Shown in pieces: positions 11,316 through 17,761 of a stretch of DNA of 64,000 nucleotides. The stretch is from Teretinema zuelzerae (GTDB taxonomy: Bacteria; Spirochaetota; Spirochaetia; Treponematales; Treponemataceae): assembly GCF_021021555.1 (NCBI RefSeq), contig NZ_JAINWA010000003.1, positions 1,116,001 through 1,180,000 on the forward strand, in the 5' to 3' direction. The notes under the pieces were generated by a model. It did no database searches. It saw nothing but the letters and a program-made list of their open reading frames with translations, and had not been told where the DNA came from. Made by a program: the position numbers and the translations under genes. Every line of letters begins with the position of its first letter. Positions within the stretch are counted from its first letter, which is position 1.

Positions 11316-14300
11316 CTAAAATTCCGCGTATAAGTACAGGGCTTTTTTCGGAACGGTTACCGGCCGGCCGCCTTCCGCTCCCGCGCGCGCGCCTGAGTCT
11401 CCCTTGAGCACGCCTGTTTCATCGCAGACAAGGCGCCAGGGGCCTCCCTTGAACGACGAGGGAAGCGCGACGATCTGCGGGATTTCCGCCGGATTGACCA
11501 GAACGCAGACGCCCTTCCATGCGTCCTGAACCGCATCCCCGTCGATGGTCCAGCCGAGTATGGGCGGGGCCGCAAGGCAGGACGCCGATTCGGCGGACGT
11601 TCCGGCGGCGGAATCGGCGGAGACGGCACCGTTTCCGGCTGCGGGATGAGGAGCGGGCTGTGAGGCGCTCTCCAAGAAGGAAAGTGACCGGGCAACCGCT
11701 TCGGCTGTTCCGAGCCGGAACAGGGGGTGAGCCTTCCGCAGGGCGATGAGGCCGCGCGTATATTCCACGACAGAGTCTTTTTCAGCCCGGCGGCTCCAGT
11801 CGAGGGCGTTGACGGCGTCTCCGAGGTTGTAGGTATTGTGGGAGAACGCCCGTTTTTTATCGCTCGTGCGCCACAGGTCGTAGAGGTCGGGGTGTTCTGC
11901 CAGAATGGAAGGAGGTATCTCCTTCGTGCGCAGAAATTCCATGCCCGCGTGAAGGATGGGCATTCCCTGGGACAGGACGACGAGGGCGATCGACAGCTTG
12001 GCGAGCGCTTCGTAGCGGGACTCGTCGGCTCGTTCCTCTACCAGGACAAGCTTATCGTAGAGCGTGGCGTTGTCGTGAATCTCCGCGTAATTGACCGAGG
12101 TTCCGGGATGGTCCGACCAGGGATTCGGATTGGCAGTGCCGTCCACCTTCCGGTTATGCACCTGGGGATGGAAGACCGCGCCGACCAGACCGAATTTAAC
12201 GGCTTCGCGATGGCTTCCGTCGTGGACGAATCCTCCTTCCATGGCGTTGAACACCGGACCCTTTATTCCGCAGCGGAAGGCGTCGTTGAAGAAACCGATG
12301 CCGGGCATCTTCCGGGCTTCCTTCATGCTCGCGCCGACCATTTTACCGGCGCGGTACATGTCCCAGCCTTCGCCGTATACCAGCACATCCCCTTTGATCC
12401 TGCGCAGCTCGCGCATGATTTCGTTCATGGTTTCCACATCGTGGAGGCCCATGAGGTCGAAGCGGAAGCCGGATAGCTTATACCGGGAAAGCCACCAGCA
12501 CAGGGACTGTTTCATGTACTCCCGGAACATGACGCGCTCGCTCGCGGTATCGTCTCCGGCCCCGGAATAGCTGTCCACGCGGAAGTAATAGCCGGGGACG
12601 CAGATGCCGAGGGGATGGTTCTGGGCAGCGGGCACGTGGTTGTACACGACGTCCATAATGACGCCCATTCCGGCCGCCGCGTAGTCCCGGACGAGGGTTT
12701 TCAGTTCGCGGATTCTGGCGGCTCCGTCCGAAGGATCGGACGAATACGAGCCCTCCGGAACCGAGTAGTTCCCGGGGTCGTAGCCCCAGTTGTATGCGCC
12801 GGAAACAAAACGCGAGCGGTACTCGGGATCGCGGGAACGGCTCTCGTCGACGCTGGAAAAATCGAAGACCGGCATGAGCTGCACGTGGGTGAAGCCCATC
12901 GTTTTCAGATGGTCGAAGCCGGTGGAAAAGCCCTTGAAAGAAGTTCCGGCAAGGGCCGCGCCTTCGTATGTCCGGCGGCTGGATTCAGGGCCGTCCCAGG
13001 TCGGGGACGAGGTGAGATCCGCGACGTGAACCTCGCAAACGACCGCGTCGCTCGGCGAACCGAGAGAAGGGGCGGCCGTCTTGTTCCAGCCGGGAGGATC
13101 GGTCGCCTCGGGGTCGACGACCTGGGACCGCAGTCCGTTGCATCCGCAGGCGCGCGCGTACGGATCGGGGGACTCGCGCGTGATTCCGTGCGCCGTAACC
13201 CGCCAGGCGTAATAGAGCCCGTGCTGGTCGCCCGGAAGAGAACGATCCCAGATTCCGGCCCTTCCTTCCTGGACTGTGCCTTCCCGGGCGGGAAGAACGG
13301 CGTCGGGTTCCGCTGAAGAATCGCCGCGGTAGAGAACCAGCTGAACGTTCCGGGCCGTCGGAGCCCACAGGCGGAAGACGGTTTCATCGCGAGAATAGAC
13401 AGCGCCCAGCTCCGCCTTCGTCCGGTATTTCTCGATAAAATAATCGGAATCGAAAAACCATTCGAGGGCCGCGGCGTTCGAGCCTCCTCCGTGCGGGCTT
13501 TTCATTCTCCCGGATAAAATCAGCTGTTCAAGCCAGTCGTCTCGATGTATAGCGCCGCAGAATTCTGCGTCGAAGCGGCGGGCGGGAAAGGACGGAGGAA
13601 AGGAGACGCCGGGTTCGGCGGCAGGCAAAAGGAATTCCAGGCTCTTGTCCGCTTCCAGCAGGCGGCCGCAGACCATGAGCGGGCGTAGGGAGAGACGGGA
13701 TCCCGTTTTATCAGGCGAGACGCCGGGATTCCATAGAAGAGAGCACCACACGCCCCCGTCGGCATCAGGACGGCGCAGCTCGATCGACAGCTTCCATCCC
13801 GGCCCGAAAAAGACTTCGGCGGCGACCCGGTTCATTCCCAGGGGAAGACAGGGGCGCAGTTCGATCTGGCGATCGATGAGCCGGGGATTGAAACCGACAA
13901 GGTCCTGAAAGGCGTTTCGGGCGAATTCAGAAACGCTCCATGCCTGGGACCAGGTTCCCGAAAGAACAGGTTTGCCGTCCGCGCCGGGCTCCGCATGGAT
14001 GTTTTCGCTCAAGGAGCCCGCGCAGCCGTCTTCCAGAATCATGCGGGCTTCTTCCCTCAAAAGGGCGGCCGCGAGATCGGGAAGCGTCCCTGATCCGGTG
14101 CCGGCGCGGGTTTGGGACAGGGCGGCGGCGGTTACGTAGGGACCGGTGTTCCACACCCAGATTGTTCCGTTATGATAAGCCGCGTCCTTGTGGTAGCGGC
14201 CGGGATACTCGTGGCGGGGATGAAAGAGGGGATCCTCCGGGGAGAGGCTGAACAGGCCGAACGGTGAAGCGAGTTCGCGGGTGACGTTTTCCAGCACGGC

Positions 14301-15821
14301 GTCGGACTGCGCGGCGTCCAGAAGGGCAGTTTCAAAGCCCTCTTTTCCCGAGGTTTGCGGGGAATCCAATATCGCCGGAGCGGTGAGCGCGAACAGCTGA
14401 TTCGGCCGTACGCGGAAATCCCGAAGCCATTCGCCGTGAGGCCCGGGGGGAAGATGATCCGCCAGGGCTTTTCTCGACGGACACCAGAATAGACGGCGGA
14501 AAGAGTCTTTCACCCTCCGGGCCTGAGCCGCGCGTTCCTCTGCGAGAGCGGGAAAGCCTTTCAGCCGGGCGATGCGGGATCCGATGACGAGGGCCGTATA
14601 CCACAAGCTTTGAATATCGTTCGCCCGGTCCCCGCGGGGAGACCAGGGCTCGTTGCCTCTGATGCGGGCGTCCATCCAGGTGTCCGCGTCGCCGTGGAGA
14701 AGCAAACCGTTCGAGTCCGTGCGGCGCGTGGCGTCCGACTGAAGGGCCAGATCGACGGTCGGACCGAGCTCCTCGAGAATCTCGAGATCTCCGGTATACT
14801 GCAGATACTCCCAGAGAGAACGGATGAACCAGAGAGTTCCGTCTGCCGTATTATATATAACGTCGTTCGATCCGCGGAACCGGTTGGGAATCCGTCCCCA
14901 GTCAGGACTCTCCGGATCCTTATTCTGATGGCAGGCGAAGGAGACGAGAACTTCTCTGGCTTCCTTAAACCTGCCGGACGTCAGCAGAATGCCGGAAAGA
15001 GCGATGAAGGTATCGCGGCCCCAGTTATCCCTGAACCAGGGAAGCCCGGCCCATATGCCGGGGCCGTGGTCGTTGACGGCGAGCATCCAGCCGGAAAAAC
15101 GAGCCCATTTTACCGCGGAATCGAAGGCAGGATCGCCTGTATCGAGGGCGCAGGAATCAACGAATTCTGCAACACTTTTCCGATGGGCGCACACCGCGTC
15201 CGAGGCGGCGAGAAACGCGGCTTTCGCGCAGGCGCGCTCGGGCGTCGATTCGAAAGCGAGATACCATCCCGGATTGGTCGAACCTTCGGCGTAAAGCACA
15301 GCGCGGTCCCGGTCCGGAGATTCCACGGTGAAGGGAGAAACGGAGGCGATCGCGGCGCCCGCATGATTGTGCCACACGACGGCCGACCCGTGCTCTGCCC
15401 GGGTCCAGCGGCCTCCTGAAAGAGAGGAATCGAATACAAGGCCGAAGCCCGCGTGGGGAACGGCCGCTGAACCGCGGGATGAATCGAATACGCGGGAGGC
15501 AGAAAGGGAGAGCCAGAACGCCTGTTCATTTATCAGAAGGGAGACGTGAAGCCCGAGCGAGCCGGAAGGATGGGCGGAGCTGGGGCGGTTGAAAATGACG
15601 GTCATGCCCTCGGGCCGGACAAGGGTCTCAGCGGCGTTGATCCGGTATAAGTCGGCGTGGTCCTCCGGACAGAGGAACACATCCGCAAGATAGCGGGTCT
15701 CTCCGCGGAAATACCCCCCGCCGCAGGAGTCGGCGGAACAGGAGAGAAGCTCGAAATAGCCGTTTTTCCGATCAGTCCATGCCATTCTGCGGGAATCGCC
15801 CGGAAGAATACGTATCATCAT
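11316..15821 (-). CDS. Fusion of GH133 amylo-alpha-1,6-glucosidase and GH13 type I pullulanase
   Basis: A 1501-residue protein joining two different alpha-1,6-debranching enzymes. Residues about 1-740 are a glycogen-debranching GH133 module: GIWAGLPWF and NWGRDTFIALSG (about 255-275), NTADGTLWFIRSLWEY, DADTWMDA, RPNQLFALT, YHNGTIWVWNTG, and GTWSQAWSVSEFAR. From about 800 on is a GH13 pullulanase: YNWGYDPGNYSVPEGSY (about 1008), VVYNHV, GFRFDLMGLHD with the nucleophile Asp (about 1120), VYGEGWD with the acid Glu (about 1150), and AEIHDN (about 1248). All catalytic residues of both halves are present. No signal peptide, so probably cytosolic, acting on glycogen or imported maltodextrins. Start ATG 15821 is chosen from the promoter and the end of homology; the frame is open further upstream. 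Confidence 0.88.
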   Translation of the reverse strand: MMIRILPGDSRRMAWTDRKNGYFELLSCSADSCGGGYFRGETRYLADVFLCPEDHADLYRINAAETLVRPEGMTVIFNRPSSAHPSGSLGLHVSLLINEQAFWLSLSASRVFDSSRGSAAVPHAGFGLVFDSSLSGGRWTRAEHGSAVVWHNHAGAAIASVSPFTVESPDRDRAVLYAEGSTNPGWYLAFESTPERACAKAAFLAASDAVCAHRKSVAEFVDSCALDTGDPAFDSAVKWARFSGWMLAVNDHGPGIWAGLPWFRDNWGRDTFIALSGILLTSGRFKEAREVLVSFACHQNKDPESPDWGRIPNRFRGSNDVIYNTADGTLWFIRSLWEYLQYTGDLEILEELGPTVDLALQSDATRRTDSNGLLLHGDADTWMDARIRGNEPWSPRGDRANDIQSLWYTALVIGSRIARLKGFPALAEERAAQARRVKDSFRRLFWCPSRKALADHLPPGPHGEWLRDFRVRPNQLFALTAPAILDSPQTSGKEGFETALLDAAQSDAVLENVTRELASPFGLFSLSPEDPLFHPRHEYPGRYHKDAAYHNGTIWVWNTGPYVTAAALSQTRAGTGSGTLPDLAAALLREEARMILEDGCAGSLSENIHAEPGADGKPVLSGTWSQAWSVSEFARNAFQDLVGFNPRLIDRQIELRPCLPLGMNRVAAEVFFGPGWKLSIELRRPDADGGVWCSLLWNPGVSPDKTGSRLSLRPLMVCGRLLEADKSLEFLLPAAEPGVSFPPSFPARRFDAEFCGAIHRDDWLEQLILSGRMKSPHGGGSNAAALEWFFDSDYFIEKYRTKAELGAVYSRDETVFRLWAPTARNVQLVLYRGDSSAEPDAVLPAREGTVQEGRAGIWDRSLPGDQHGLYYAWRVTAHGITRESPDPYARACGCNGLRSQVVDPEATDPPGWNKTAAPSLGSPSDAVVCEVHVADLTSSPTWDGPESSRRTYEGAALAGTSFKGFSTGFDHLKTMGFTHVQLMPVFDFSSVDESRSRDPEYRSRFVSGAYNWGYDPGNYSVPEGSYSSDPSDGAARIRELKTLVRDYAAAGMGVIMDVVYNHVPAAQNHPLGICVPGYYFRVDSYSGAGDDTASERVMFREYMKQSLCWWLSRYKLSGFRFDLMGLHDVETMNEIMRELRRIKGDVLVYGEGWDMYRAGKMVGASMKEARKMPGIGFFNDAFRCGIKGPVFNAMEGGFVHDGSHREAVKFGLVGAVFHPQVHNRKVDGTANPNPWSDHPGTSVNYAEIHDNATLYDKLVLVEERADESRYEALAKLSIALVVLSQGMPILHAGMEFLRTKEIPPSILAEHPDLYDLWRTSDKKRAFSHNTYNLGDAVNALDWSRRAEKDSVVEYTRGLIALRKAHPLFRLGTAEAVARSLSFLESASQPAPHPAAGNGAVSADSAAGTSAESASCLAAPPILGWTIDGDAVQDAWKGVCVLVNPAEIPQIVALPSSFKGGPWRLVCDETGVLKGDSGARAGAEGGRPVTVPKKALYLYAEF

Positions 15822-15828
15822 GAAGCTT

Positions 15829-15857
15829 ATGATAGCAGGAGAATTGCGAAATCTCAA
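15829..15857 (-). promoter_or_regulatory. Promoter of the debranching fusion; predicted leaderless
   Basis: Minus strand: TTGAGA (15852-15857), 17-nt spacer, TATCAT (15829-15834), then 7 nt to ATG 15821. There is no Shine-Dalgarno for this ATG or the next two, which supports a leaderless start. Confidence 0.6.
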
Positions 15858-15934
15858 GGTAAAGCGGTTTACCTGCCAGAAAAAAAGACATATACTCCGT
15901 TGCATCGGGCTTTTTTCCCGATCTGGAGGACAGG

Positions 15935-17761
15935 ATGAAGATGAATGCCGCGGCAGTATATCATCATTGCGGCGACGCCTGGTGTTCGGCATTGGACGCC
16001 GAAACCCTATTGATTCGCATCAGAACAGCGCGGGACGACATCGACCGCATAGACCTGGTCTACGCAGATCCCTTTGAATGGGATCGAAGCGGAACAGAAG
16101 CGCACTGGAACAGCGTTCTTTCTCCCATGGCCATATGCGGAAAAACCGCCGTCCATGATTACTGGGAGGCGCGGATTTCCCCTCCCTACGGCAGGCTGAA
16201 ATACTGGTTCATCCTGAATAAGGGCCGCCAGGCCTACGAATTCGGCGAGAAGGGAATCGTGGAGACGGTGGACCGGTGGAATACCTGGAACACCTTCATC
16301 TTCCCCTACATCCAGCCGACTGAAGTTTTCCATGCCCCGGACTGGGTAGCGGGCACGGTGTGGTACCAGATTTTTCCCGAGCGGTATCACAACGGAAACG
16401 GGGATCTCAATCCACGGAACACCCTCCCCTGGCACCACGGGCCGGTCACCAACGGGGAGTTCTACGGCGGAAATCTTCCCGGCATTACCGCGAAGCTCGA
16501 TCATATCGCGGAGCTCGGCTTCACCGGAATCTATCTCACGCCCATCTTCGATTCGCCGTCCGTTCACAAATACGACACCCGCGATTATATGAAGATCGAT
16601 CCTGCATTCGGCTCCGAGGGGGATTTGAAGGAACTGGTCAGAAAGGCGCATGCCAAAGGAATACGGGTGATTCTCGACGCGGTGTTCAATCACAGCGGGC
16701 GAAGTTTCGGCCCCTGGCAGGATGTACTGGAGAAAGGCGAGGAATCCCGGTATCGCGACTGGTTCGTCATCAAGGGTTTTCCGATTTTCGGCCGCGACCC
16801 CGAGACAGGTGCGGCTCTTTCCGATACGGGTGATTCCCACGGAACGAACCTGAGAACCTTCGCCTTCACCACGGGCATGCCGAAGCTGAACACGACGAAT
16901 CCGGAAGTCAGAGAGTATCTCCTGAACGTCGCGGAATACTGGATTAGAACCTGCGACATAGACGGCTGGCGGCTGGACGTCGCAAACGAGGTCGACCACG
17001 AATTCTGGCGGCATTTCCGGAAGAGGGTCAAGGCGGTCAAGAGAGATGCCTTCATAGTCGGGGAAATCTGGCACCATTCTATGGACTGGCTGCGCGGAGA
17101 CCAGTACGACGCCATCATGAACTATCACTTCGGCCAGGCCGTCGTCGATTTTTTGAACGAGTCGGCCGAAATACCGGACGCCCTGGCGCTCGCTCACCGC
17201 TTCACGACGCTGGAAATGTCGTACCCGCCGAACGTGGTGCGAAACAGCTTCAATCTTCTGGACTCCCACGACACGCCGCGGTTGATCCATCAAGTGAAGG
17301 ACAACATCGAAGCCGCGCGGCAGGCATGGCTCCTGCTCGCGGTTCTGCCGGCTCCGCCGTGTTTCTATTACGGAAGCGAATTCGGAATCACCGGCGGCTA
17401 CGATCCGGACTGCCGGCGCTGCATGCCCTGGGACGCCTCAGGCCAAACTCCCGGACAGTTCGGATTCATCAAAGAGATCGTCGCGCTCCGCAAGGACAAC
17501 AGCGTTCTGATCAACCGGGGAAAGCGCGAGTGGCTCGCAAGCCGGAAAACGCCCGGACTCTTCGGCGTGCGGATTACCGAAAGCCCGGACACGAAGGGAC
17601 TCATCCCCGAAGGAAAGCCCCGTTCCATAACAGTGCTCATAAACCGGAGTAAAAAGGACGCCTCTGGAAAAGACCTTTCAGCCCTCCTCCTCCCCGGCGA
17701 AATCGACGATCAAGCCTTCCGCAGGCTCGCGCCGAACGGCTTCGCCTGGCGCGCAAAATAA
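15935..17761 (+). CDS. GH13 alpha-glucosidase/cyclomaltodextrinase-neopullulanase type
   Basis: A 608-residue alpha-amylase family enzyme with an N-terminal beta domain (1-125), as in GH13 subfamily 20 (cyclomaltodextrinase, neopullulanase, maltogenic amylase). Barrel motifs: WYQIFPERYHNG start, DAVFNHSG (region I), GWRLDVANEVDHEFW with nucleophile Asp (about 348), VGEIWHH with acid Glu (about 376), LLDSHDTPR (about 443). No signal peptide, so an intracellular role on maltodextrins is likely. Shine-Dalgarno GGAGGA before ATG 15935. Divergent from the debranching fusion with about 110 bp between them, suggesting joint control. Confidence 0.92.
   Translation: MKMNAAAVYHHCGDAWCSALDAETLLIRIRTARDDIDRIDLVYADPFEWDRSGTEAHWNSVLSPMAICGKTAVHDYWEARISPPYGRLKYWFILNKGRQAYEFGEKGIVETVDRWNTWNTFIFPYIQPTEVFHAPDWVAGTVWYQIFPERYHNGNGDLNPRNTLPWHHGPVTNGEFYGGNLPGITAKLDHIAELGFTGIYLTPIFDSPSVHKYDTRDYMKIDPAFGSEGDLKELVRKAHAKGIRVILDAVFNHSGRSFGPWQDVLEKGEESRYRDWFVIKGFPIFGRDPETGAALSDTGDSHGTNLRTFAFTTGMPKLNTTNPEVREYLLNVAEYWIRTCDIDGWRLDVANEVDHEFWRHFRKRVKAVKRDAFIVGEIWHHSMDWLRGDQYDAIMNYHFGQAVVDFLNESAEIPDALALAHRFTTLEMSYPPNVVRNSFNLLDSHDTPRLIHQVKDNIEAARQAWLLLAVLPAPPCFYYGSEFGITGGYDPDCRRCMPWDASGQTPGQFGFIKEIVALRKDNSVLINRGKREWLASRKTPGLFGVRITESPDTKGLIPEGKPRSITVLINRSKKDASGKDLSALLLPGEIDDQAFRRLAPNGFAWRAK

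Follow-up and report, generated by a model that had tools for sequence, protein, structure and literature searches.

Animals and fungi handle glycogen with a fused enzyme, the glycogen debranching enzyme (AGL/GDE), in which a GH13_25 and a GH133 module act on branch points within one polypeptide. The eukaryotic GH133 module has a glucoamylase-like pocket (PMC4837477) and takes off the single remaining glucose (PMC4837477, PMC4236520); in CgGDE, mutation showed that D1078 and D1241 are both needed (PMC4837477). GH133 proteins also occur on their own, as in Thermococcus gammatolerans (structure 7vma), Massilia and Kiritimatiellia, and the archaeal enzyme is reported to cut maltodextrin branches of DP 13-24 directly, preferring them (PMC9142091). 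Type I pullulanases, including those of Paenibacillus barengoltzii (6jeq) and Bacillus subtilis (AmyX, 2e8y), combine CBM48 with GH13 and require two or more glucoses in each chain (PMC3443597); glycogen is a poor substrate for pullulanase (PMC3443597, Table 3). Two alpha-glucan enzymes are likewise joined in one bacterial protein in Neisseria (GlgB-MalQ; PMC11046441), but the enzymes there are different ones, a branching enzyme and a 4-alpha-glucanotransferase.

We analysed a 64-kb stretch of Teretinema zuelzerae DNA (the window) that encodes another combination, a GH133 module followed by a type I pullulanase. Compared with eukaryotic GDE, the order is reversed, GH133 being N-terminal, and the GH13 partner is a type I pullulanase rather than a 4-alpha-glucanotransferase; the eukaryotic-type GDE model TIGR01531 scored 55.6 against a cut-off of 1399.6. 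The stand-alone GH133 proteins have the same fold and catalytic positions, and the bacterial ones share a C-terminal KDxLxxI segment with the fusion, but they end where its pullulanase begins. Type I pullulanases share CBM48 and GH13, the YNWGYDP motif and the catalytic D/E/D, and the fusion differs from them by an additional N-terminal GH133 half of 760 residues and by forming its own clade among spirochaete pullulanases. No account of this architecture was found in the open-access literature, a scope outside which CAZy, InterPro and most subscription journals lie. The fusion is a real, conserved architecture built from two known kinds of enzyme. Its features are listed in the table.

Table. 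Features of the fusion gene and its surroundings; positions are those of the window unless another locus is named, and residues are those of the fusion protein.
Feature	Position	Strand	Remarks
Fusion gene, GH133 + type I pullulanase	11316..15821	-	1501 aa; no signal peptide apparent
GH133 half, residues 1-761	13539..15821	-	AlphaFold pLDDT 85, pTM 0.91
GH133 subdomains			N-terminal beta-sandwich ~1-190; (alpha/alpha)6 barrel ~225-645; C-terminal beta domain ~650-735
GH133 D270 (WGRD)	15012..15014	-	aligned with CgGDE D1078 (glucose-binding Asp); kept in all fusions; the sequence around it is degraded in G007
GH133 general acid D384 (TWMD)	14670..14672	-	aligned with CgGDE D1241; invariant in the alignment
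GH133 likely general base E606 (LSEN)	14004..14006	-	from motif and conservation; presumed equivalent of CgGDE E1492
Fusion junction, residues 762-794	13440..13538	-	KDxLxxLIxSGR segment (ancestral GH133 C-terminus), then pullulanase N-terminus
Type I pullulanase half, residues 795-1501	11319..13439	-	CBM48, GH13 barrel, C-terminal domain
Pullulanase nucleophile D1122 (GFRFDLMG)	12456..12458	-	aligned with 6jeq D350
Pullulanase acid/base E1151 (YGEGWDM)	12369..12371	-	YGEGW motif
Pullulanase transition-state stabiliser D1250 (HDN)	12072..12074	-	aligned with 6jeq D470
Sigma-70-like promoter TTGAGA-N17-TATCAT	15829..15857	-	read from sequence; ends 7 nt before ATG
LacI-type operator-like palindrome GTAAACCGCTTTAC	15859..15872	-	between the divergent genes; one base upstream of the promoter
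Sites of motif GTAAACCGSTTTAC	window 15859-15872; G000 C1:736279-736313, C1:924731, C1:1195076; L116 6483
Divergent cyclomaltodextrinase/maltodextrin-glucosidase-like GH13	15935..17761	+	608 aa; Alpha-amylase_N domain; no signal peptide apparent

The minus strand carries a single uninterrupted reading frame between 15992 and 11316. The sequence-only reading had placed the start at 15821, and alignment with relatives agreed: homologues begin at the ATG-ATG at this point, which gives the length of 1501 residues.

In the N-terminal half, Pfam GDE_C (PF06202) matched residues 251-634 with 229 bits against a cut-off of 21. The solved relatives are distant ones, the eukaryotic glycogen debranching enzyme and the archaeal amylo-1,6-glucosidase. 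When an AlphaFold model of residues 1-800 was compared by VIA-align, the archaeal structure 7vma was the top match (Z 33.1, 4.2 Å, 545 residues) and CgGDE reached Z 30.7. Other (alpha/alpha)6 families scored close to the GH133 structures, so fold similarity by itself is insufficient for assignment; the GH133 identity is diagnosed by the sequence profile together with the catalytic positions. Among the latter, E606 is likely the base.

The C-terminal half carries CBM48 at residues 804-889, followed by a GH13 (alpha-amylase) domain, and scored 568.2 bits with the NCBIfam type I pullulanase equivalog TIGR02104 (cut-off 504.5); with the GlgX model TIGR02100 the fusion protein stayed below the cut-off (111 vs 640.9 bits). 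YNWGYDP and the catalytic D/E/D are present. The nearest solved structures are Paenibacillus and Bacillus enzymes, with 6jeq matching at E 2e-122. A two-domain AlphaFold model of residues 230-1428, covering both catalytic domains, matched the pullulanase 6jfj with Z 40.3 and 1.9 Å over 564 residues at 42% identity, and its first part matched GH133 structures. The pTM of 0.81 of this joint model is compatible with a fixed arrangement of the two predicted domains. The initial proposal from the DNA alone, that one polypeptide contains two non-homologous debranching modules, each of them complete, was thus borne out by GDE_C, CBM48 plus GH13, and TIGR02104. The proposal that both active sites are intact was upheld as well, by alignment for D270, D384, D1122 and D1250, by motif for E1151 and, as the likely base, by motif and conservation for E606.

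No missed stop or frameshift that would separate two genes was found around residues 740-800: 30 further genomes, from isolates and MAGs alike, read through this junction, and the junction segment is conserved, which excludes an assembly or frameshift artefact. Nothing in the window favoured a false joining of two neighbouring genes, whether by assembly or by gene calling. The one copy pointing that way is that of Brucepastera, which is split by a frameshift, but there the neighbouring gene and both GH77 genes are frameshifted too. We regard an artefact as having a negligible probability. In the complete genome of Brucepastera parasyntrophica (L037 5291-11833), the frameshifts are likely sequencing errors because they also break these other genes.

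Nor is the fusion a singular protein. It recurs in 30 other spirochaete genomes, some thirty species that span four or more families of a single order. Among 59 relatives, 13 have it, within the genus and family of T. zuelzerae as well as three further families of the order. Scanning 84,980 species genomes gave 205 relatives, of which the best 80 were inspected; 26 of these were fusions, every one from a spirochaete, with Treponema porcinum, Gracilinema and Brucepastera among them. None of these best 80 was a fusion from outside the spirochaetes, the other coverage being a within-phylum census. That census of 296 spirochaete genomes found strong GH133 in 32, fused in six, all of the same order; the remaining strong GH133s stand alone in frames of 500-907 aa.

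We also examined the origin of the fusion. In a quick tree of spirochaete pullulanases, the 29 fused halves tested grouped in a single clade whose SH-aLRT support was full and whose stem measured 0.66. In the GH133 tree, the 31 fused cores, together with nine spirochaete cores not seen fused, formed one fully supported clade. Both trees fit a single fusion event at the ancestral GH133 C-terminus. Two separate fusions, which the GH133 tree with its unresolved trichotomy would by itself allow, are countered by the single clade of pullulanase halves in the quick tree. The junction falls where stand-alone GH133 proteins have their conserved C-terminus, the position expected if a stop codon was lost between adjacent genes. 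The C-terminal KDxLxxI segment occurs also in GH133 proteins of Massilia and Verrucomicrobia, so it represents the ancestral GH133 C-terminus and is ruled out as a vestige marking former fusions. Rectinema subterraneum has a GH133 gene in the syntenic position (L070 7173-9713) that still contains the junction segment, with the pullulanase absent. Since this species is nested among fused members and retains the segment, secondary loss of the pullulanase is indicated.

The fusion gene is divergent from a cyclomaltodextrinase-like GH13 gene, with which it shares the intergenic operator-like motif. The sequence-only reading assigned the linear products to this neighbour, a role that it may have. 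This neighbour is 64% identical between species and occupies the same place in two other genomes (G002, G005) and in Brucepastera. It stands in the window's genus and Brucepastera instead of the divergent secreted GH13 found in other families of the order, where the locus comprises MalE-, MalF- and MalG-like genes, a small gene, the secreted GH13 and the fusion, followed, where the contig reaches, by a convergent PUD-domain pullulanase. A conserved gene of ~300 aa without a Pfam match follows MalG in this maltodextrin locus (L026 13719-14615; L070 4411-5409). Elsewhere, the T. zuelzerae genome encodes two GH77 (MalQ) enzymes, a GlgX above the TIGR02100 cut-off, two phosphorylases and a secreted amylase/pullulanase cluster. 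GH77 was found in 57 of the 59 relatives, including every fusion-bearing one among them. The idea that the fusion acts in place of a glucanotransferase was therefore rejected; with GlgX/GlgP, the second phosphorylase and two MalQ present, it adds to the usual enzyme set.

The operator-like motif has the features usual for LacI-family sites (PMC4052901): it is palindromic with an even length, has CG at its centre and lies 30-140 bp ahead of the start. Of the 26 fusion genes examined, 11 have it 33-127 bp upstream, compared with a background frequency of 0.023 per kb. This makes it ~75 times denser there than in the rest of the same loci (p = 3e-15 with kinship ignored, a value that overstates the case because the species compared are related). 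All 12 examined copies of one Treponema clade (L038-L065) lack it. Within the T. zuelzerae genome, 16 matches with at most one mismatch were found, compared with three for a reversed control pattern. Sites of the same motif accompany malQ, glgP and an ABC-importer operon with a gene for a LacI-family regulator (G000 C1:731486-732517), and a looser form occurs at the secreted PUD-pullulanase. Judged by this shared motif, GTAAACCGSTTTAC probably marks a maltodextrin regulon comprising the fusion, the importer/LacI operon, malQ, glgP and the secreted pullulanase, and the fusion gene apparently shares its control with sugar-import genes. A copy of the palindrome with one mismatch (G000 C1:657652; L151 5653) lies upstream of a second ABC-importer operon, which carries a LacI-family regulator and a gene that resembles GH43 by eye.

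From these observations, we consider it somewhat probable that the fusion is a cytoplasmic debrancher with two active sites, belonging to a maltodextrin-utilisation regulon, that acts on imported branched maltodextrins and splits the labour by stub length. Branched maltodextrins would be cut outside the cell by secreted pullulanases and amylases and would enter via a MalEFG-type ABC transporter. The GH13 half would then hydrolyse alpha-1,6 bonds bearing side chains of at least two glucoses, and the GH133 half would remove single alpha-1,6-linked glucose stubs. Its substrates may include panose-type ends produced by the neopullulanase-like neighbour, as neopullulanases of this kind also make panose (PMC3443597). 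Phosphorylase and MalQ would finish the linear products. Because pullulanase needs at least two glucoses and eukaryotic GH133 takes a single one, the two halves would complement each other on limit dextrins taken up by the cell. The suggestion in the sequence-only reading that the modules serve different branch lengths is consistent with these specificities, although we infer the division itself, as we do the cytoplasmic location, the substrate and the repressor. Weighing against this explanation are the archaeal report on DP 13-24 branches, the eroded GH133 halves described below, the presence of GlgX, MalQ and phosphorylase, and the motif-less Treponema clade.

If the archaeal specificity applied here, the GH133 range would lie beside or above that of the pullulanase. 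The labour would then be reversed, with GH133 debranching medium-length side chains directly and the pullulanase removing short ones, and 7vma, the enzyme with this preference, is indeed the closest solved structure, ahead of CgGDE. However, the archaeal enzyme is just 18% identical to the fusion GH133 over the aligned part and was assayed at 70 °C and pH 4 (PMC9142091), and the glucoamylase-like pocket of CgGDE, like the catalytic positions held in common, agrees with an exo-acting glucosidase; we therefore consider the reversed division unlikely. Improbable, too, is a role on the cell's own glycogen, in which the fusion would act after phosphorylase as a bacterial AGL counterpart. AGL also pairs GH13 with GH133 (PMC4837477), and one of the two phosphorylase genes bears the same operator motif (L115), but a GlgX gene lies directly upstream of that very glgP, the fusion adjoins maltodextrin import genes in other families, and pullulanase is weak on glycogen.

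A further alternative is that the GH133 half serves the pullulanase chiefly as a scaffold or glucan-binding appendage, its own catalysis being gradually lost. Of 31 fusions, 29 retain the catalytic positions of GH133; those of the pullulanase are kept in every one of the 31 examined that is long enough to show them, some being cut by contig ends. The two exceptions are sister species of one genus. In G001 (L032 6641-11053), E606 is replaced by G and the likely base is lost, and in G007 (L029 322-4722) the WAGLPWFRDNWG motif is replaced with D270 itself retained. Only the GH133 half is eroded and accelerated in them, with branch lengths of 1.02 and 2.01, respectively, against 0.40 and 0.30 for the pullulanase; their joining in the GH133 tree may be a long-branch effect. 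Since key motifs are lost while the pullulanase stays, GH133 activity appears dispensable in these two species. In all other fusions, that of T. zuelzerae included, every catalytic position is kept, and conservation of the GH133 core is on a par with that of the pullulanase (70% vs 62-64% to the nearest relatives), which makes a mere scaffold very unlikely.

Returning to the dual-site debrancher, a more far-reaching version is that the fusion is an independently evolved bacterial GDE counterpart, in which a branched dextrin would pass between two fixed sites so that short-stub dextrins are debranched faster or more completely than by an unfused pair. This we regard as doubtful. Compared with the animal and fungal enzyme, the bacterial fusion has its modules the other way round and another GH13 enzyme as the partner of GH133, and both sites were kept while a spirochaete order diversified. 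Fused proteins, the unfused one of Rectinema and the half-eroded ones of the two sister species form a natural comparison set for testing whether coupling matters. The fusion protein could also serve starch processing as a one-piece debrancher.

The placement of the promoter is similar in other treponeme fusion copies. Within the family of T. zuelzerae (L035, L036, L044, L048), the -10 box ends ~6-9 nt before the ATG, and this spacing suggests that the fusion mRNA may be leaderless or near-leaderless there. In other families (L050, L053, L058, L059), a Shine-Dalgarno-like GGAG precedes the fusion gene.
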